A stretch of 44,364 nucleotides of DNA. Source: Elusimicrobiota bacterium. GTDB taxonomy: Bacteria > Elusimicrobiota > UBA8919. This document shows, one piece after another, positions 5,968-36,060 of this stretch. Numbering within the stretch: the first letter of the stretch is position 1; the number at the start of each line of letters is the position of its first letter. The stretch lies in contig JBFLWK010000014.1 of the NCBI GenBank assembly GCA_040757695.1, positions 1 through 44,364 on the forward strand. Direction: 5' to 3'. A model generated the notes under the pieces. It did not search any database. It was not told the origin of the DNA and saw nothing but the letters and a program-made list of their open reading frames with translations. The position numbers were made by a program, and so were the translations under genes.

Positions 5968-6711
5968 ATGAAAAAAATCGCTATTACTGGTAAAGGCGGT
6001 GTTGGCAAAACTACAATTGCTGCTACACTCGCAATTGCGTTTTCTAAAGAAAAAAAAGTTGTCGCGGTTGATTGCGATCCCGACTCAAATCTGGCGGAAA
6101 CACTTAATTTTCCTGAACCGAAAAAAATTATACCAATATCAGAAATGAAAAATCTGATACAGGCACGAACCGAATCAAAAAATGGTTTTTTTAAGATGAA
6201 CCCGAAAGTTGACGATATACCCGAAAGGTTCTGTCCTGAATACAAAAATATCCGGCTTATAAATATGGGTTCTATTAAAAAAGGCGGCAGCGGCTGTTTC
6301 TGTGCTGAAAATACATTCATAAAAACGTTTATCAGCCATCTTTTGTTACAGCGTAATGAGTTCTTAATAATGGATATGCCTGCTGGAATTGAAAATCTTT
6401 CACGCGGGACCGCATCAGCCGTTGATGCTGTCTTGATTGTTGTTGAGCCGGATATGAAATCAATTGAAACTGCAAAAAGAATCAGGCAACTTTGTAATGA
6501 ACTGAAAATAAAAAAAGTTTTTATTATTGGGAATAAAGTTATAGATAAAACCGATAAGGATTTTATCAGACAAAATATTGATATGCTTGATATTTTAGAG
6601 TTTATCAAGTATAATAGAAATATAAGAACATCACGAGGACTATTATCAGAGAACAAGTCAATTCTAACCCAAATTTATAAAATAAAAAAACTTTTGGAGG
6701 CAGGGAAATGA
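5968..6711 (+). CDS. cooC: CO dehydrogenase nickel-insertion ATPase CooC
   Basis: This 247-residue MinD/ParA-type P-loop ATPase delivers nickel to the C-cluster of CO dehydrogenase. The deviant Walker A GKGGVGKTT is at residues 8-16, and VAVDCDPDSNLAETL holds the switch I aspartate. GGSGCFCAENTF contains the CxC motif that binds metal at the dimer interface, and IMDMPAGIENL is Walker B. Length is normal. Its stop overlaps the cooS start (ATGA), so the pair is coupled. I see no convincing promoter at the expected distance. The 350 bp upstream are repeats. Confidence 0.92.
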   Translation: MKKIAITGKGGVGKTTIAATLAIAFSKEKKVVAVDCDPDSNLAETLNFPEPKKIIPISEMKNLIQARTESKNGFFKMNPKVDDIPERFCPEYKNIRLINMGSIKKGGSGCFCAENTFIKTFISHLLLQRNEFLIMDMPAGIENLSRGTASAVDAVLIVVEPDMKSIETAKRIRQLCNELKIKKVFIIGNKVIDKTDKDFIRQNIDMLDILEFIKYNRNIRTSRGLLSENKSILTQIYKIKKLLEAGK

Positions 6712-8612
6712 GCAATAAAGAAAAAAGCATTGATTTGGCAACAACAGAAATGCTTGATATTGCGTGTAAAAAAAATATAGCAACCGCATTTGACAGATAC
6801 GAGATGATAGAGCCGGAATGCGGATTCGGTCAATTAGGTATTTGCTGCAGGAACTGCGTAATGGGACCCTGTCGGATTGACCCATTTGGTGAAGGTGCAA
6901 AAGAGGGGATATGTGGTGCTACCGCCGATATTATCGCGGCAAGAAATCTTGTCAGAATGATTGCTGCAGGTGCCGCCGCACATTCAGACCATGGCAGAGA
7001 TATAGCACATACTCTACTTGCGACTTCGGAAGGAAAAACAAAAGGTTATGAAATCAAGGGGAAGCAAAAATTATTTAATTTAGCAAAAGAACTCAATATA
7101 AAAACGGAAAACAGAAAAATAGAAGAAATCGCTCATGATGTTGCCGAAAAATGTTTCGCTGAATTCGGGCAGCAGCATGGCGAATTACAATTTACTAAAC
7201 GAGCACCCAAAAAACGACAGGAGATCTGGAAAAAAAATAAATTTATGCCGCGTGGTATTGATAGAGAGATTGTTGAAATAATGCATAGAACACATATCGG
7301 CGTTGATAATGACTACGAAAACCTAATTCAACAAGGCATTCGTGCTTCACTCGGAGACGGTTGGGGCGGTTCAATGGTAGCGACCGATTTGTCAGATGTA
7401 ATTTTTGGAAACCCAACGCCTGTTCGTTCAATTGCCAATCTCGGTGTTCTAAAAGAGAATGAGGTGAACCTGATTGTTCACGGACACGAGCCGACACTTT
7501 CAGATGTAATTGTTACAGCAGCACAGGATAAAGAACTGCTGGATTTAGCAAAAAGTTACGGTGCCAATGGTATAACACTTGCTGGAATCTGTTGCACGGC
7601 AAATGAGATTCTAATGAGACACGGAATTCCACTTGCAGGAAATTTTTTGCAGCAGGAACTGGCTGTAATCACCGGTGCGGTTGATTTGATGCTTGTGGAT
7701 GTTCAGTGCATTATGCCCGCTCTCGGAAATCTCTGTCAGTGTTTTCATACAAAATTTGTCTCAACCTCACCGAAGGCGAAATTTCCATTTGCAGAACATG
7801 TTGAATTTTCAGAAGAAGAAGCACTGCCTATAGCAAAAAAAATTGTCCGAATGGCAGTTGAGAATTACAAAAACAGAAAGAAGGAATTTGTAAAAATCCC
7901 AAATGAAAAAATGGATTTGGTAGCAGGGTTTACCGCTGAATATGTTTATAAAATGCTTGGTGGAAAATATAGAGCAACCTACAGACCGCTTAATGATGCG
8001 ATAATTTCAGGACGGTTGCGAGGTGCAGTTGGAATAGTTGGTTGTAATAATCCAAAAATAAAACACGACTGGGCACATGTAACACTTGCAAAGGAACTTA
8101 TAAAAAAGGATGTACTTGTCGTCGTAACCGGTTGTTCCGCGATTGCTGATGCAAAGGCAGGACTTTTGGTACCGGAGGCTGCAAAAAAATATGCAGGGAA
8201 AGGACTGCAAGAAATTTGTGAAGCGGTAGGCATCCCACCTGTTTTACACTTGGGAAGTTGTGTTGATTGTTCAAGAATTTTAACTGTGCTTGCCAATACT
8301 GTTTTAGAAGGCGGGTTGGGAGAAGATATTTCGGATTTGCCTGTTGCTGGTGCTGCGCCTGAATGGATGTCTGAAAAAGCAGTCAGTATTGCCTTTTATG
8401 TCGCTGCTTCGGGAGTTTATACTGTTTTAGGACTCCCGTTTCCTGTTCTTGGAGGTAAAAAACTTACAGAACTTTTGACAAAAAATCTGGAAAATATCGT
8501 CGGTGCAAATTTTGCATTTGAGCCCGACCCATTAAAAGCAGCTGAGTTAATCGTCAATCATCTGAACAAAAAACGCGAAGCACTTAAACTCAAACCAATA
8601 ATGTATGAATAA
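6708..8612 (+). CDS. cooS: anaerobic carbon-monoxide dehydrogenase, catalytic subunit
   Basis: This 634-residue homodimeric Ni-Fe enzyme interconverts CO + H2O with CO2 + 2 e-. The N-terminal cysteines at residues 38, 46, 47, 50, 55 and 69 match the D- and B-cluster spacing of Carboxydothermus CooS. C-cluster ligands are visible in GHEPTLSDVI (His), AGICCTANEI, VDVQCIMPAL, GIVGCNNPK, VVTGCSAIAD and LGSCVDCSRI. All key residues are present and the length is typical. The start overlaps cooC and has an AGGCAGGGA Shine-Dalgarno sequence. It is the CooS type, not the AcsA subunit by neighbourhood, yet acsB lies 5.5 kb downstream on the same strand. It may therefore supply CO to acetyl-CoA synthase. 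Confidence 0.96.
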   Translation: MSNKEKSIDLATTEMLDIACKKNIATAFDRYEMIEPECGFGQLGICCRNCVMGPCRIDPFGEGAKEGICGATADIIAARNLVRMIAAGAAAHSDHGRDIAHTLLATSEGKTKGYEIKGKQKLFNLAKELNIKTENRKIEEIAHDVAEKCFAEFGQQHGELQFTKRAPKKRQEIWKKNKFMPRGIDREIVEIMHRTHIGVDNDYENLIQQGIRASLGDGWGGSMVATDLSDVIFGNPTPVRSIANLGVLKENEVNLIVHGHEPTLSDVIVTAAQDKELLDLAKSYGANGITLAGICCTANEILMRHGIPLAGNFLQQELAVITGAVDLMLVDVQCIMPALGNLCQCFHTKFVSTSPKAKFPFAEHVEFSEEEALPIAKKIVRMAVENYKNRKKEFVKIPNEKMDLVAGFTAEYVYKMLGGKYRATYRPLNDAIISGRLRGAVGIVGCNNPKIKHDWAHVTLAKELIKKDVLVVVTGCSAIADAKAGLLVPEAAKKYAGKGLQEICEAVGIPPVLHLGSCVDCSRILTVLANTVLEGGLGEDISDLPVAGAAPEWMSEKAVSIAFYVAASGVYTVLGLPFPVLGGKKLTELLTKNLENIVGANFAFEPDPLKAAELIVNHLNKKREALKLKPIMYE

Positions 8613-8648
8613 AAAACTTATGGAAAGATTATTTCAAGTGGAGAAAAA

Positions 8649-8809
8649 ATGGTAGAAGTTTTAACTCCGTTACAAAAAGAAATTCTTAAAAAATTCCTGA
8701 TGAAATAGAAAAATTACCAGTTACAATGTTAAAACCAGTAAATATAATTAAATTAAAAGAATTTTTTATAAATTCTGCAATGCAATTGATTGATAAAAGA
8801 ATAAAATAG
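8649..8809 (+). pseudogene. AbiEii/AbiGii-type nucleotidyltransferase toxin remnant
   Basis: MVEVLTPLQKEILKKF matches the start of AbiEii-family nucleotidyltransferase toxins. A frameshift follows, then PDEIEKLPVTMLKPVN and IIKLKEFFINSAMQL, which resemble the family's C-terminal end. The middle (around 150 residues, including the catalytic site) is deleted. The remnant occupies the gap between cooS and the ferredoxin gene and indicates past insertion of a defence/toxin gene into this operon. It is called from short motifs only. Confidence 0.45.
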
Positions 8810-8818
8810 GTAAAAGTT

Positions 8819-9349
8819 ATGAAGAAGATATATTGTGATATTTCAAAATGTCTTGGATGCAGAAGTTGCGAACTCGCCTGCGCAGTTGAGCACTCCAAAA
8901 CAAAAATTTTAGAGCGAGCAATTTACGAAACACCGTTACCAGAAAAACGTGTTTCTGTAGAACAGTTGTCTTTACCTTCTACCTTCTACCTTCTGCCTTC
9001 TACCGTTCCTTTACAGTGCCGTCATTGCGAAGATGCACCCTGTGTAAAAATTTGTCCTACAAAATCAATGGAGAAAATGGAGAATGGGATTGTTTTACAT
9101 CACGATGAGACCTGTATCGGTTGTAAATGGTGTATTATTGTCTGCCCATTTGGGATTCCAAAAACAAACAAGGCGGGTAAAACAATAATAAAATGTGACC
9201 TGTGTATTGAACGACTGAAAAATAATGAATCTCCTATATGCGTTTCTGCTTGTCCAACAAAAGCGCTTAAATTCAAAGAAGCAGAAGAAATTGCACAAGA
9301 GAAGAAGAAAAAGTTTTTAGTTGAGTTTGTTTTTTCTACGAAACTTTAG
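8819..9349 (+). CDS. four-cluster ferredoxin (CooF/HycB-like) with repeat insertion
   Basis: This 176-residue electron carrier has four [4Fe-4S] motifs: CLGCRSCELAC, CRHCEDAPCVKICP, CIGCKWCIIVCP and CDLCIERLKNNESPICVSACP. It is the expected electron partner of CooS and can pass electrons to the diaphorase encoded next. It is longer than the usual 140-160 residues because a 7-bp tandem array (8974-9004) is inserted in frame. That array encodes LPSTFYLLPSTV between the first two clusters, immediately before CRHC. The cysteine pattern is intact, so the protein is probably functional. Confidence 0.88.
   Translation: MKKIYCDISKCLGCRSCELACAVEHSKTKILERAIYETPLPEKRVSVEQLSLPSTFYLLPSTVPLQCRHCEDAPCVKICPTKSMEKMENGIVLHHDETCIGCKWCIIVCPFGIPKTNKAGKTIIKCDLCIERLKNNESPICVSACPTKALKFKEAEEIAQEKKKKFLVEFVFSTKL
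8974..9004. repeat. 7-bp array (ACCTTCT)n inside ferredoxin gene
   Basis: ACCTTCT x3, GCCTTCT and a partial ACC lie back to back, adding residues to the ferredoxin without breaking the frame. Confidence 0.85.
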
Positions 9350-9448
9350 TTTCGGTTCCCAGCAGAGGCGGATCCCTGCCTGTAGCAAGGAAGCTCCTTT
9401 GGCGGAAAAACTAGCAAAACCGATGCTAAAGCATCATAGAATAATTGT

Positions 9449-9892
9449 ATGAGTATACAAAAATTGATTAAGAAATACGAAAAAACAGAAGAGAATGTTT
9501 TAGGTATCCTTGAAGATTTACAACAGGAATTCAATTATCTATCCGAAGAGCATCTGCGACTTATATCAGAAAAGTTTAAAGTTCCATTAAGTAGAATCTA
9601 TTCTTTAGCAACTTTTTATAAAGCGTTTTCACTTAAGCCAAAAGGGAAACATATTATACTTGTATGTTTAGGAACCGCATGTCATGTTCGTGGTGGACCC
9701 AAAATTGTTGAAACGGCTAGTCGTCTGCTAGGTATTCAACCCGGTGAAACAACTGCTGACAAACTATTCACTTTGGAAACCGTCAACTGTCTCGGTGCTT
9801 GTGCGTTAGGACCGTTAATGGTTATAGACGGCAAATACTATGGTAAAATGTCATCTGCAAAAGTAAACAAAATAATTGAGAGTTACAAATGA
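9449..9892 (+). CDS. NuoE/HydC-like [2Fe-2S] subunit
   Basis: This 147-residue thioredoxin-fold [2Fe-2S] subunit belongs to NADH-dependent diaphorases (NuoE, HoxE, HydC). Two helices at the N-terminus are followed by the ligands VCLGTACHVRG and NCLGACALGP, the standard C-x4-C plus C-x3-C pattern. Length is normal for NuoE. There is no clear Shine-Dalgarno sequence before the ATG. It follows the four-cluster ferredoxin and precedes the NuoF-like gene, which together form the flavin module that exchanges electrons with NAD(P)H. Confidence 0.9.
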   Translation: MSIQKLIKKYEKTEENVLGILEDLQQEFNYLSEEHLRLISEKFKVPLSRIYSLATFYKAFSLKPKGKHIILVCLGTACHVRGGPKIVETASRLLGIQPGETTADKLFTLETVNCLGACALGPLMVIDGKYYGKMSSAKVNKIIESYK

Positions 9893-10010
9893 AGCACAAA
9901 TGGAATAAGTTTTCAAGATGATGAAAGAGAAAGTACTGGATTGGGAAGAGGCAATGCTTTTTAAAACTTTTATGTATTTGAAAAAATAAGTTAAAAAGGG
10001 CATCAACTTT
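9893..10010. other. short gap without a supported gene
   Basis: The 118 bp between the NuoE-like and NuoF-like genes contain no convincing ORF. In some HydABC-type operons a small ATPase gene sits here. A short open stretch is visible but is too short to assign. Confidence 0.4.
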
Positions 10011-11942
10011 ATGAAAATAAATTCAGTTGATGAATTAGAAAAATTAAGAAGTGAAATTGTCACACAACGAAACCCAGAGCAAACTGTAATAAGTATTGGA
10101 AATGGTACTTGCTGTAGGGCGGTTGGCTCAGAAAGTGTTGCTGATACTTTTATAGAGGAAATTAAGAAAAGAAATTTAAAAGATAAATTTATTTTACAAC
10201 TTACAGGCTGCCAAGGATTTAGTGAACAGGACCCTGTAGTAGTGATTTATCCAAAGAAAATTTTTTATCACCAAGTAAAACCAGAAGATGTTACTGAAAT
10301 ATTAGATTCTATTGTGGCAGGTAAGATAGTTAATAGACTTTTATATGAAAACTTTATGTACGAAGCAGAAATCCCGTTCTTCAGGATGCAAAAACGATTT
10401 CTTACTAGTAGTTTTGGTAAAATAAATCCATTGAGTATATCAGATTATATTTCTATTAGTGGATATTCAGCATTAGCAAAAGCACTACAAATGAATCCGG
10501 AAGAAATTATTGATGAAATAAAAAAATCCGGTCTGCGTGGTCGTGGTGGTGCCGGCTTTCCGACGGGTAGAAAATGGTCTGCCTGCCGTCAGTCCAATCC
10601 AACAACTAACAACCAACAACTAACAACTAAGTATATCATCTGCAATGCTGATGAAGGTGACCCGGGTGCATTTATGGACCGCTCACTCTTAGAAAGTAAT
10701 CCACATTCTGTTATTGAAGGAATGATTATTGGTGCATATGCGATTGGTGGTTTAGGTAGCCGATCCTTCAGCCCCGCCGAGCATGAAGCCCATAAAGGGC
10801 TGAATGCTCGGCTACAAGGGGCTTCAGGGTCGGTTGAAATTCAAGGTTATATTTATGTTCGTAATGAATATCCATTAGCAGTGAAACATTTACAAATTGC
10901 ACTTACACAGGCAAAAGAATATGGATTTTTAGGTGCGAATATTTTGGGAACTGAGTTTTCATTTGATATAAAAATAATTCGTGGTGGTGGTGCATTTGTA
11001 TGTGGTGAGTCATCTGCATTAAGAGCATCTATTGAAGGTAAAATAGGTGAACCATCAGTAAAATATGTTCATGCAACAGATAAAGGACTCTACGACAGAC
11101 CTACAGTTTTGAATAATGTAAAAACATGGGCGTCTGTGCCTTTAATAGTCAATAATGGCGCTGAATGGTTTTCATCAATCGGTACAGAAAAATCCAAAGG
11201 GACAATGATATTTTCGCTTGTCGGAAAAATCAACAATACAGGGCTTGTAGAAGTGCCCATGGGTATAAAACTTCGGCAGTTGATTTACGATATTGGCGGT
11301 GGAATTCCAAATAACAAAAAATTCAAAGCAGTTCAAACAGGTGGTCCTTCAGGTGGCTGTATTCCAGAGAGTTTATTAGACCTACCAGTTGATTACGAAG
11401 CACTAACAGAAGCAGGTTCTATGATGGGTTCTGGTGGGATGATAGTTATGGATGAAGATACCTGTATGGTAGAAGTAGCGCGATATTTCTTAGCATTCAC
11501 TCAGGATGAGTCCTGTGGGAAATGCACTCCCTGCCGTGAAGGAACGAAAATTATGTTAGATATCCTAACTCGTATCACACAAGGAAAAGGTTCACAAGGT
11601 GATATTGAACTGCTTGAAGAGGTTGGTCAGATGGTCAAAGATACTGCATTGTGTGCGCTTGGTAATAGTGCGCCTAATCCTGTATTAACTACAATAAGAT
11701 ATTTTAGAAATGAATACGAGGCACATATAAAAGAAAAAAAATGTCCAGCAAAGCAATGTAAATCACTTATTACATATAGCATACTGGAAAAATGTAATGG
11801 CTGCCATGTGTGTTTTAAGAACTGTCCACAAGAGGCGATTTCTGGTGAGCCCAAAAAACTGCATACAATAAATCAGGATAAATGTATCAAATGTGGTATC
11901 TGCTTTGATCTCTGTAAATTTGCTGCTATAGAAATTCAATGA
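10011..11942 (+). CDS. NuoF/HydB-like NADH-binding flavoprotein subunit with two repeat insertions
   Basis: This 643-residue FMN and NAD(H)-binding diaphorase subunit belongs to the HydB/HndC class. Residues 1-110 form a thioredoxin-like [2Fe-2S] domain (GNGTCCRAVGSE, TGCQGF). GLRGRGGAGFPTG (about 172-184) and CNADEGDPGAFMDRS bind FMN, and RGGGAFVCGESSAL binds NADH. SCGKCTPCREGT (about 500) and a later Cys ligate [4Fe-4S]. Residues 590-643 carry two ferredoxin clusters (CNGCHVCFKNCP, CIKCGICFDLC). Two stretches absent from homologues interrupt the core. One is a heptamer array encoding NPTTNNQQLTTK before YIICNADEGDPG. The other is a palindromic element encoding about 27 residues between AYAIGG and GYIYVRNEYPLA. 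The catalytic motifs remain in frame. Confidence 0.92.
   Translation: MKINSVDELEKLRSEIVTQRNPEQTVISIGNGTCCRAVGSESVADTFIEEIKKRNLKDKFILQLTGCQGFSEQDPVVVIYPKKIFYHQVKPEDVTEILDSIVAGKIVNRLLYENFMYEAEIPFFRMQKRFLTSSFGKINPLSISDYISISGYSALAKALQMNPEEIIDEIKKSGLRGRGGAGFPTGRKWSACRQSNPTTNNQQLTTKYIICNADEGDPGAFMDRSLLESNPHSVIEGMIIGAYAIGGLGSRSFSPAEHEAHKGLNARLQGASGSVEIQGYIYVRNEYPLAVKHLQIALTQAKEYGFLGANILGTEFSFDIKIIRGGGAFVCGESSALRASIEGKIGEPSVKYVHATDKGLYDRPTVLNNVKTWASVPLIVNNGAEWFSSIGTEKSKGTMIFSLVGKINNTGLVEVPMGIKLRQLIYDIGGGIPNNKKFKAVQTGGPSGGCIPESLLDLPVDYEALTEAGSMMGSGGMIVMDEDTCMVEVARYFLAFTQDESCGKCTPCREGTKIMLDILTRITQGKGSQGDIELLEEVGQMVKDTALCALGNSAPNPVLTTIRYFRNEYEAHIKEKKCPAKQCKSLITYSILEKCNGCHVCFKNCPQEAISGEPKKLHTINQDKCIKCGICFDLCKFAAIEIQ
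10601..10629. repeat. 7-bp array (AACAACT)n inside the nuoF-like gene
   Basis: AACAACT, AACAACC, AACAACT, AACAACT, then AAG. The array splits the conserved region between GRKW and YIICNADEGDPG without a frameshift. Confidence 0.85.
10760..10833. repeat. 74-bp palindromic element inserted in frame in the nuoF-like gene
   Basis: Nested inverted repeats are visible. The inner perfect pair is GCCGAGCAT (10776-10784)/ATGCTCGGC (10804-10812), with AGCCC/GGGCT inside. The outer imperfect arms are CCGATCCTTCAGCCCC and GGGGCTTCAGGGTCGG. It is GC-rich compared with its surroundings. It encodes an extra peptide in a position where NuoF homologues run directly from AYAIGA into (N)KGYIYVR. Confidence 0.8.
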
Positions 11943-11957
11943 TCAAGAGGGGAAACT

Positions 11958-12373
11958 ATGGGTAAAGTTATTGTTAAAACGAAACTCTGGAATTTTTGTG
12001 ATGAGGTAGAAGTAAGAAAAGGGCTCCGCAAGCCTGAAGAGATAAGATCGGTTGAAGTTGATGCTTTAGTTGATACAGGTGCGACGATGGTAAGTTTACC
12101 AAAGAAATTAGTAGAAGCACTTGGGTTATTATTCTTACGTGAAACTACAGTTACTTATGCTGATGGTAGGAGAGAGAAAAAAAATGTTGCTACGGGTTTA
12201 AATATTGAAATTTTAGGTCGATTAGCATTGACTGATTGCCTTGTTGAAGAGCTAGAGACAAAAGTTTTAATTGGCCAAATCCCGCTTGAAGAAATGGATT
12301 TGATTGTAGATCCAAAAAATGGAGCAATTGGTCCTCGTCCTGAATCGCCAGATATGCCATTAATTGAAATGTT

Positions 12374-12377
<4 letters not shown>
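11958..12377 (+). CDS. retropepsin-like clan AA aspartic protease
   Basis: This 139-residue protein of the bacterial clan AA aspartic protease group (retropepsin-like) has the catalytic motif LVDTGATMVSLP at residues 36-47 and a second region LIGQIPLEEMDLIVDP. It ends with the GAIGPRPESPD signature typical of the TIGR03698-type family. A single catalytic Asp per chain implies a homodimer. There is a good GAGGGG Shine-Dalgarno sequence, and its stop overlaps the start of the HoxU-like gene (ATGA). Lying between two diaphorase subunit genes, it could act in maturation of the complex. That role is inference, and the family is often found beside toxin-antitoxin or unrelated genes. Confidence 0.8.
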
Positions 12378-13136
<759 letters not shown>

Positions 13137-13153
<17 letters not shown>

Positions 13154-30445: not shown

Positions 30446-30805
30446 GGGGGTGAACAGGGCTCGACGGGGATATTTGACTGATGTAGCGGCAGGCCGCAGT
30501 TGACCGAAAGGCTGCGTAAAAAATCGGTCATACAAAAATAACTGCCGTTTATACACCGGTAGTTGCCTACGCATAATTGCGTAAGCCGCCTGCCTAACCT
30601 TTTTCTGTGAGGTTGGGGTGAGGTGTTATAAAAGCAGAATAGTTTTCGGCATTGTCGTTGTACCGAAAGCGAAACCTTAAACGACTGGCTGTCAGATATT
30701 TTGTCAGTGGAAGTTTTTGGCAGCGAGAACAAAACACTGACTATGCTTGTAGAAGCCGTTAGGCGTTATCTTCGGACGCGGGTTCGATTCCCGCCACCTC
30801 CACCA
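30446..30805 (+). ncRNA. ssrA: tmRNA
   Basis: This 360-nt transfer-messenger RNA has the tRNA-like ends GGGGGTGAACAGGGCTCGAC at the 5' side and GGTTCGATTCCCGCCACCTC plus CACCA at the 3' side. The 7-bp acceptor pairs fully (one G-U), and CCA is encoded. The tag reading frame is not certain. One frame ends PVVAYA before TAA at 30574, and another ends LRIIA before TAA at 30582. The first looks more like a degradation tag with its small hydrophobic end. smpB lies directly upstream, an arrangement common in bacteria. Confidence 0.95.
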
Positions 30806-33977: not shown

Positions 33978-34700
33978 TCATTCTATCTCAATTTCTTTTA
34001 TTTTCACTTTTGCCTGTCTGGTTTTTGGCAGTGTTATATTAAGAATGCCGTCTTTGTATTTTGCTTTTATGTTTTTTTCGTCAACAGCCGCTGGTAGCGA
34101 TATTGAGCGGTAGAAATTGCCGTATCTTCTTTCCGAGTAGTAATATCCCTTTTCTTTTTTTTCTTCTTCTTTTTTGCTTTCACCCGTCAGTGTCAGATTA
34201 CCCTGTTCAAATTTAACTTTTATATCTTTTTTCTCAATACCTGGAACTTCAACCTTTACTACGACAGCATCCTTTTTCTCGTCAATCTCTATCTTGGGCG
34301 TAAACCCGAAATCTTTTGTAGTATCAAGCCCTTTCTGCGATAAACTCTTACCAAAAAATCTGTCAAACGCATCACGAATATCCAAAAGTTCCCTGAATGG
34401 TTCAAATTTTATGATGTCAGTCATATTCATCACCGCCTGCTTGTTTTGATGCATTTTTCTTATTCGCGTTTCTCCTTTTTGTGGAGTATCTTCTATTGTT
34501 CGTATAATATTATAATGTAAATTTTTAGGAACTTCATGGAGTCCAATCTGATGGCATAAATCTACTGTTTTCTTAAAAGTGTTGAAATAACAGCGGCAGA
34601 AATCATCTTCAAGTTCCCGTTCAAAATCATCAAGCAAATCAGTATCTAATTCATCGTCTATAAAATCGGATAATAATTGGAAAAATTTTTCGTGTTCCAT
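33978..34700 (-). CDS. anti-sigma factor fused to an Hsp20 small heat-shock protein
   Basis: This 240-residue protein combines two modules in one continuous frame. Residues 1-75 resemble a short zinc-finger anti-sigma domain (SDFIDDELDTDLLDDFEREL, then CRCYFNTFKKTVDLCHQIG with three Cys and one His). Residues 95-240 are an Hsp20/alpha-crystallin protein (FEPFRELLDIRDAFDRFFGK, VVVKVEVPGIEKKDIKVKFE, LTLTGES, FYRSISLPAAVDEKNIKAKY, DGILNITLPK). The stop of the ECF sigma gene overlaps this ATG (TAATG). Internal ATG codons at 34454 and 34430, the latter behind GGCGGTG, could produce a separate Hsp20. The arrangement suggests a stress circuit in which the chaperone domain or unfolded protein controls sigma release (inference). 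Confidence 0.85.
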   Translation of the reverse strand: MEHEKFFQLLSDFIDDELDTDLLDDFERELEDDFCRCYFNTFKKTVDLCHQIGLHEVPKNLHYNIIRTIEDTPQKGETRIRKMHQNKQAVMNMTDIIKFEPFRELLDIRDAFDRFFGKSLSQKGLDTTKDFGFTPKIEIDEKKDAVVVKVEVPGIEKKDIKVKFEQGNLTLTGESKKEEEKKEKGYYYSERRYGNFYRSISLPAAVDEKNIKAKYKDGILNITLPKTRQAKVKIKEIEIE

Positions 34701-35281
34701 TAATGTTCTCTAAAATATCTTGAAAGTTTATCTCTTAAAAACAAGCGTGCTCTATGCAGTCGTGATTTTATTGATGGCAACGAAATTTTTAATGTCCTTT
34801 GTAGCTCGTCATTAGACATGCCTTCAATATCTCTTAAAATCAGAACTGTTTTGTATTTTTCAGGTAGTAATCCAATCGCTTCGTTAAGTCGGTTTTTTAG
34901 CTCTATATTTTCTAATGTTGCCAGTGGGTTTTTTGACCAATCGTCTGCAAATTCTCGCTTCGCTGTACCTTTTGGTGTAGTAATTGGAGTATCCATAGAG
35001 ACGGTATGTATCACCTTTTTTTTCCGTTTTTTCATCAAAACCAGATTCAACGCAATCCTGTAAAGCCAGGTTGAAAATTCCGAAGTTCCTTTGAAACCTT
35101 TTAACTTTTTCCATGCAGTTAGAAATGTTTCCTGCAAAAAATCATCTGCCGATGACCTGTTGCCTGTCAGATTCAAAAGCAAATTGTAAATTTTTAGTTC
35201 GTGCTTTTTTATTAACTGCTCAAAAGCGCGGGTATCGCCTCTTTTTGATTTCTCAACAAGGATTTTATCGTCTGATTTCAT
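34700..35281 (-). CDS. ECF-type RNA polymerase sigma factor
   Basis: This 193-residue sigma factor of the RpoE type has region 2 (FEQLIKKHELKIYNLLLNLT, then ADDFLQETFLTAWKKLKGFK and FSTWLYRIALNLV) at residues 20-85. Region 4 (LLPEKYKTVLILRDIEGMSN, then LKISLPSIKSRLHRARLFLR) is at residues 135-185. It is directed by the following anti-sigma/Hsp20 gene, which overlaps its stop by one base. It lies 50 bp downstream of the GNAT-like gene and probably shares that gene's promoter. No clear promoter of its own is visible. Confidence 0.93.
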   Translation of the reverse strand: MKSDDKILVEKSKRGDTRAFEQLIKKHELKIYNLLLNLTGNRSSADDFLQETFLTAWKKLKGFKGTSEFSTWLYRIALNLVLMKKRKKKVIHTVSMDTPITTPKGTAKREFADDWSKNPLATLENIELKNRLNEAIGLLPEKYKTVLILRDIEGMSNDELQRTLKISLPSIKSRLHRARLFLRDKLSRYFREH

Positions 35282-35331
35282 TTATTTAGATGCAGTAATT
35301 TTCAGGCGGGTGCGTAGATAAAACAGGTTTT

Positions 35332-36060
35332 TCAGTCTTCTTCCAGTTTTTCAGGAACTATTATGTTTTCGTTTTTATTCAATAATTCTTCTGAAATAGG
35401 TCGTTCAAATTTTGATTGTATCATCTCCTGTAAGTATCTTTTTACTGTTGTATCCCAGTATTTTTTGGTTACATAATAAACCTTTGCGCCACCAAGTTCA
35501 TGCTGAACATCCGGCCATGGATATGACGGCTGTGCCATCCCGATACCCCATCTTTTCAAGCCGTTGTAACTTTCATATGTAGCCCAGAACTCTTTCTGAT
35601 TGAGCGTCTCAAAACAGTACTCGCATTTTGCATAATACATGATTGCGCCTGCTCGTAAGCCCCGTCTGAAAGCCATAGAATGAAGCGAGATATTTATATC
35701 CTCGTTCATAATCCGACCATTACAGAAACCGACAAGATGTCCATCAATAAGTCCAACAAGTTGATACGGGTCTTTTAAACGGTTTCTTACCCAGCCAAGA
35801 ATTTCAGCATAAACCCGCGCACCAACAATATCATAAAAATCATGGTCAACCTCTATAATCTTTTTCAGATAATTTAACAGCAATGGTGATTCCTCTTTTT
35901 TCAGCGGTCTGATTAACATCGTCTCACCTGTTTTCACTTTTATTGCAGCAGGTTCAAACGACGGAATGACCATCGGATCCGGCGATAAGAGTGGTTCCAA
36001 TTCCTCTACCTTAAAAACTATCTGTTCCTGCGATACCTTTTCAGGCGGTAACTTCTTCAT
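35332..36060 (-). CDS. GNAT-like acyltransferase domain protein (uncertain)
   Basis: This 242-residue protein has a proline-rich N-terminus (residues 1-45) and a probable GNAT fold from about 46 to 205. Visible are ETMLIRPLKKEESPLLLNYL, then LVGLIDGHLVGFCNGRI, like the beta4 strand of acetyltransferases. A classical acetyl-CoA P-loop (R/Q-x-x-G-x-G/A) is only weakly matched by FRRGLRAGAIMYYAK. The substrate is unknown. It is the first gene of the operon GNAT - ECF sigma - anti-sigma/Hsp20, with an AGGAGG Shine-Dalgarno sequence and a good promoter. Confidence 0.55.
   Translation of the reverse strand: MKKLPPEKVSQEQIVFKVEELEPLLSPDPMVIPSFEPAAIKVKTGETMLIRPLKKEESPLLLNYLKKIIEVDHDFYDIVGARVYAEILGWVRNRLKDPYQLVGLIDGHLVGFCNGRIMNEDINISLHSMAFRRGLRAGAIMYYAKCEYCFETLNQKEFWATYESYNGLKRWGIGMAQPSYPWPDVQHELGGAKVYYVTKKYWDTTVKRYLQEMIQSKFERPISEELLNKNENIIVPEKLEED

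Follow-up and report, generated by a model that had tools for sequence, protein, structure and literature searches.

The locus described here is likely to encode a heat-shock ECF sigma factor and a soluble anti-sigma factor, followed by a small heat-shock protein (Hsp20) that belongs to the output of the system and whose reading frame has merged with that of the anti-sigma gene, so that two products are to be expected from the joined frame. The window, which is the whole stretch of 44,364 nucleotides that was analysed, is contig C14 of a draft metagenome-type assembly of an Elusimicrobiota bacterium, which comprises 2.89 Mb in 264 contigs.

The sigma factor gene (34700–35281, reverse strand) encodes a protein of 193 residues, which matches sigma70 region 2 (E = 8e-16) and region 4_2 (E = 7e-14) of Pfam and the NCBIfam model TIGR02937, all above the cut-off. 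The closest NCBIfam models include SigW. A protein of this length with sigma regions 2 and 4 only is classified by its sequence as an ECF (group 4) sigma factor. Its stop codon overlaps by one base (TAATG) the start of a frame of 240 codons (33978–34700, reverse strand), which contains no stop between its anti-sigma and Hsp20 domains. The ECF sigma gene and the adjoining uninterrupted frame had both been reported in the first-pass annotation, and both stand. The frame is composed of an anti-sigma domain (codons 1–75, 34476–34700, reverse strand), a linker (codons 76–92, 34425–34475, reverse strand), and a part equivalent to a free hsp20 gene encoding 148 residues (codons 93–240, 33978–34424, reverse strand). 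The alpha-crystallin domain (33984–34286, reverse strand) occupies residues 139–239 and covers positions 2–101 of the 102 positions of PF00011 (E = 1e-24). The domain is complete, as had been claimed, so the protein is assigned by sequence to the small heat-shock proteins. It also carries a C-terminal IEI motif, and it is the sole Hsp20 of the 2.89-Mb genome, which is 99% complete. The gene upstream of the sigma gene (35332–36060, reverse strand) has a weak match to GNAT acetyltransferases. Its adjacency to the sigma gene is conserved in three relatives (G004, G006, and G007), and co-transcription of the two genes is possible. Elsewhere, the window contains a tmRNA gene (30446–30805) with the tag peptide AVYTPVVAYA and, judging from translations only, carbon monoxide dehydrogenase-like genes together with a maturation ATPase and a bifurcating-type hydrogenase/NADH module (5968–13153).

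The N-terminal domain of the fused frame did not match any anti-sigma family of Pfam. A profile built from its orthologues matches RsiW, the inhibitor of SigW (PDB 5wuq and 5wur), with an E-value of 0.005, and five of eleven relatives of the domain match zf-HC2 (best E = 2.5e-7). The AlphaFold2 model of the domain contains four helices in the anti-sigma pattern (mean pLDDT 82). Its four fold matches in the PDB are all anti-sigma factors (RsiW, MucA twice, and RslA), none of them significant alone. The RsiW profile and the weak fold matches together point to a class I anti-sigma domain (ASDI). The first reading of this part as a cysteine-rich anti-sigma-like domain is therefore right about the anti-sigma nature of the domain, but its cysteines run FCRC...LCH and do not form an H-x3-C-x2-C motif. 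This motif is absent from the anti-sigma of the window and from its family and occurs in more remote relatives, G011 and G040 among them. Since this protein and its family have not kept the zinc motif, it is, on sequence grounds, not a zinc anti-sigma (ZAS) protein. From the conserved adjacency of the two genes, we infer that the anti-sigma domain binds the sigma factor.

The locus was compared in relatives, of which the seven named ones are all Elusimicrobia MAGs, and a single genome represents the genus of the window. The shared neighbourhood consists of the sigma and anti-sigma genes and, in most genomes, a convergent uridine phosphorylase gene. The anti-sigma and hsp20 genes are separate at the same syntenic locus in G002, G005, and G008. 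In G002, the two genes share a frame, but a TAG stands between them in the DNA, and the genome was rejected as a second fusion, which an open-frame figure of 259 had indicated. In G003, a truncated hsp20 follows the anti-sigma gene (L030:5586–5768), and the genome has no other hsp20. The sigma/anti-sigma pair is kept in G001, G004, G006, and G007, where hsp20 is absent both from the locus and genome-wide; thus, the pair persists without Hsp20 in several genera. In G011 and G270 (L036 and L060), the gene that follows the anti-sigma gene is not hsp20 but clpB, which has its own ECF promoter. The anti-sigma profile has matches in 40 of 341 Elusimicrobiota genomes, and no second case of an anti-sigma and Hsp20 in one frame was found among the examined loci from these 341 genomes. 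The architecture is as unusual as initially proposed, and it does not recur as a family among the examined Elusimicrobiota loci.

The linker (GETRIRKMHQNKQAVMN) consists mostly of translated former intergenic DNA that held a promoter, a leader, and a Shine-Dalgarno sequence, as the alignment with relatives indicates. Since GAAAC, CATC, GGTGAT, and ATG are kept at matching positions in the window, G002, G005, and G003, codon 93 of the fused frame corresponds, by alignment, to the codon at which the free hsp20 of the relatives starts and is hence the ancestral start. The Shine-Dalgarno sequence of this internal start (AGGCGGTGAT, 34429–34438, reverse strand) has an energy of −12.7 kcal/mol, which surpasses those of 27 gene starts of the window (best −12.6 kcal/mol) and of 186 internal ATGs (best −11.7 kcal/mol). 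The corresponding values for hsp20 of the relatives range from −12.5 to −19.3 kcal/mol. The suggestion that internal starts could yield a free Hsp20 gains weight from these signals: the internal promoter and ribosome site probably still yield free Hsp20, and translation of the long transcript would give the fusion protein as well. After shuffling, the linker remains open with a probability of about 0.32 given the frame, so the open frame alone is not evidence of selection; the value falls to about 0.1 when the one-in-three chance of the frame is included. The junction is best read as a recent joining of the hsp20 frame to the anti-sigma gene, for which the simplest explanation is an indel of recent date, be it natural or technical.

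If the indel were technical, a one-base assembly error in the anti-sigma tail would conceal genes that are really separate, as they are in all relatives. The tail accommodates such an error readily, since the loss of one base within or close to the CAAAAAGG run, or at any position across much of the tail, results in a 79-residue anti-sigma with a basic tail ending in TPQKEKRE, much like those of the relatives, and an insertion of one base gives a 94-residue protein ending at the hsp20 start. The draft metagenome-type origin of the assembly, with its 264 contigs from a single sample, also fits an error. However, the homopolymer is only five A long, and the long ORFs nearby in the window are unbroken, which makes the indel rate look low. 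A point mutation or a small deletion is equally able to fuse the genes naturally, and the frames of G002 are parted only by the TAG. We consider an assembly error unlikely.

The promoter motif was found by eye, by comparing orthologous upstream regions, and was then tested; a search with a generic ECF promoter expression upstream of the sigma gene had given nothing useful. An element pair at fixed spacing, roughly GxAxC-N16-CATCTAA, is located upstream of the sigma genes of the relatives, and the same pair precedes hsp20. In the window, the ECF-type promoter of the sigma gene (35286–35313, reverse strand) is composed of GCACC, N16, and CATCTAA and adjoins the ATG; it is conserved in relatives, and its −35 element (GCACC) is poor. 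The ECF-type promoter of hsp20 (34445–34472, reverse strand) is located within the fused frame and is formed by GAAAC (34472–34468), N16, and CATCAAA (34451–34445). A matrix trained on 25 sites from other genomes ranked the sigma promoter first and the hsp20 promoter fourth among all positions of the window. The hsp20 promoter is weakened: its score of 9.3 is below that of every training site (17–31), and its T-tract is lost. The expression of free Hsp20 may be reduced as a result, and the weakening could mean that the fusion is taking over. The sigma gene starts without a Shine-Dalgarno sequence and with the −10 element within five bases of the ATG, from which a leaderless sigma mRNA is predicted; the mRNAs of the relatives may be leaderless as well.

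Promoters of the type GAA[A/T]C-N16-CATCTAA precede the sigma gene and groES in the family of the window and clpB, dnaK, and grpE in other families. Within the genome of the window, the pattern is present before the sigma gene, groES (identified by a relaxed pattern), and hsp20 only. The strict pattern GAAWC-N16-CATCTAA has 27 matches in 12 genomes with the sigma/anti-sigma pair, one match in the reversed control, and none in four Elusimicrobiota genomes without the anti-sigma. Eighteen of the 27 sites are positioned just before sigma (5), groES (5), clpB (3), hsp20 (2), dnaK (2), or grpE (1) genes. A rough binomial estimate excludes chance as the explanation of the strict sites, a caveat being that these genomes also served for the discovery of the motif. 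Promoters of groES were found in further members of the family, with a variant ending in CATCAA in G003 and G004. The groES gene of G011 combines GAATC-N16-CGTCTAAA with a neighbouring CIRCE element, and groES in the family of the window (L090–L100) has no CIRCE even though hrcA has been retained beside grpE. In G038, G053, and G042, hsp20 and the anti-sigma gene are on different contigs, and hsp20 is still located behind an ECF promoter. No such promoter precedes hsp20 of G029, G031, and G032, which have TTAGCA-type repeats or similar sequences instead, and the ECF promoter site is absent from clpB in the family of the window. A grpE match in the genome of the window was set aside because it is not conserved, as were GAATC...CATCT matches within grpE and hrcA, which reflect a conserved peptide. 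The promoter type that the sigma gene shares with the main chaperone genes identifies, at the sequence level, a putative heat-shock sigma regulon. Judging from the relatives, in which it is separate, missing, or unlinked but preceded by the same promoter, Hsp20 appears to be an output of the sigma factor.

The promoter pattern is present in 117 of the 341 Elusimicrobiota genomes. The two large families f3 and f4 have it at a level close to the control, which suggests that the sigma factor was lost there. Families in which the anti-sigma profile has no match often carry the pattern as well, and there it precedes redox genes; other related sigma factors may use the same motif. In four families (f6, f17, f23, and f24; L189–L224), the same pattern is located before redox and thiol-stress genes, which encode thioredoxin, peroxiredoxin, and OsmC-like, CxxC glutaredoxin-like, UspA-like, and TolC-like proteins. 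A related sigma factor may run a thiol-stress regulon in these families, much as SigH and SigR do in Actinobacteria.

The first-pass annotation proposed that the fusion is a folding sensor, in which client binding could change sigma binding. In a fuller form of this idea, client binding by the Hsp20 part would change or sequester the anti-sigma part and release the sigma factor, so that a single protein would measure unfolded protein. The frame is uninterrupted with both domains intact, and if the sequence is taken at face value, no anti-sigma would be made without an attached Hsp20. In its AlphaFold2 model, the fusion contains two confident domains joined by a flexible linker, with pLDDT below 50 at residues 89–102, so a functional fusion is physically possible. 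The predicted targets of the sigma factor are chaperone genes, and the promoter and Shine-Dalgarno sequence of hsp20 are weaker than in the relatives, which would fit a diminished importance of free Hsp20. PMC7406223 reports the view that an anti-sigma domain lacking a sensory zinc site depends on added domains. Nevertheless, every other member of the family and order has Hsp20 as a separate gene, has a broken copy, or lacks it; the fusion is unique, its linker resembles translated intergenic DNA, and the internal start signals of hsp20 persist. A sensory role, which the relatives with a separate, missing, or unlinked Hsp20 do not support, is not needed to explain the locus and is quite improbable. 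If the fusion were such a sensor, which we doubt to the same degree, the output chaperone of the regulon would have become part of the sigma inhibitor, and the system would read the occupancy of its own chaperone directly, while free Hsp20 would still be made from the promoter within the fused frame. A real but passive fusion, in which the Hsp20 oligomer concentrates the anti-sigma and alters the strength of inhibition without sensing clients, agrees with the large oligomers that small heat-shock proteins generally form and with the independent domains and flexible linker of the model, but the evolutionary pattern shows no need for it and direct support is nil, which makes it very improbable.

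A mechanism can be proposed. In unstressed cells, the soluble RsiW-like anti-sigma would hold the sigma factor. Proteotoxic stress, presumably heat, would free the sigma factor from the anti-sigma, and the freed sigma factor would transcribe its own operon, groES, and hsp20 from the GAA[A/T]C-N16-CATCTAA promoters. In the ancestor, hsp20 would have stood apart as the third gene, equipped with a promoter, leader, and Shine-Dalgarno sequence of its own. A small indel in the lineage of the window probably removed the stop codon of the anti-sigma gene, so that the frame runs through the hsp20 promoter and leader into hsp20. Two products would result, free Hsp20 initiated at codon 93 and an anti-sigma–Hsp20 fusion translated from the long mRNA. 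The locus may represent a gene fusion caught early, in which the promoter and ribosome site of the downstream gene are still readable within the joined frame. It is also a warning against taking every striking two-domain frame for a purpose-built sensor, since a regulator and its target may simply have merged recently. The regulon matters more than the fusion: the comparisons argue, at the level of sequence, that Elusimicrobiota have a chaperone regulon driven by an ECF sigma factor from a defined, testable promoter.

Searches of the open-access literature turned up no description of an ECF heat-shock regulon from Elusimicrobiota and none of an anti-sigma/Hsp20 fusion, and parts of the system resemble known ones. 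The Hsp20 part is like bacterial Hsp20/IbpA-type proteins in its complete alpha-crystallin domain and C-terminal IEI motif and differs from them in being in frame with an anti-sigma, as in no other examined genome. The HrcA-CIRCE system controls the same chaperone genes, and hrcA is present in the genome of the window. CIRCE precedes groES in other Elusimicrobiota, and G011 has both CIRCE and the ECF promoter, whereas groES in the family of the window has the ECF promoter instead, with no CIRCE found. RsiW of Bacillus subtilis is membrane-bound, contains zinc, and answers envelope stress. It is the closest solved anti-sigma by profile (5wuq), and SigW is among the closest sigma models, but the anti-sigma of the window is short and soluble, and the predicted targets are cytosolic chaperones. 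By analogy, the closest known system in function is SigH-RshA of Actinobacteria, which has a role in heat shock. In SigH-RshA of Corynebacterium and Mycobacterium and in SigR-RsrA of Streptomyces, as in the proposed system, an ECF sigma factor with a soluble anti-sigma controls chaperones and itself. The promoters differ, GGAA-N16-19-GTT for SigH and SigR and GAA[A/T]C-N16-CATCTAA here; RshA and RsrA bind zinc, whereas the anti-sigma of the window lacks the zinc motif; and the presence of hsp20 in the operon is a feature of the window. The sigH-rshA operon of C. glutamicum contains an internal sigma-dependent promoter before rshA (PMC3489674), and the window shares this operon-internal arrangement, with the putative sigma-dependent promoter located before hsp20.
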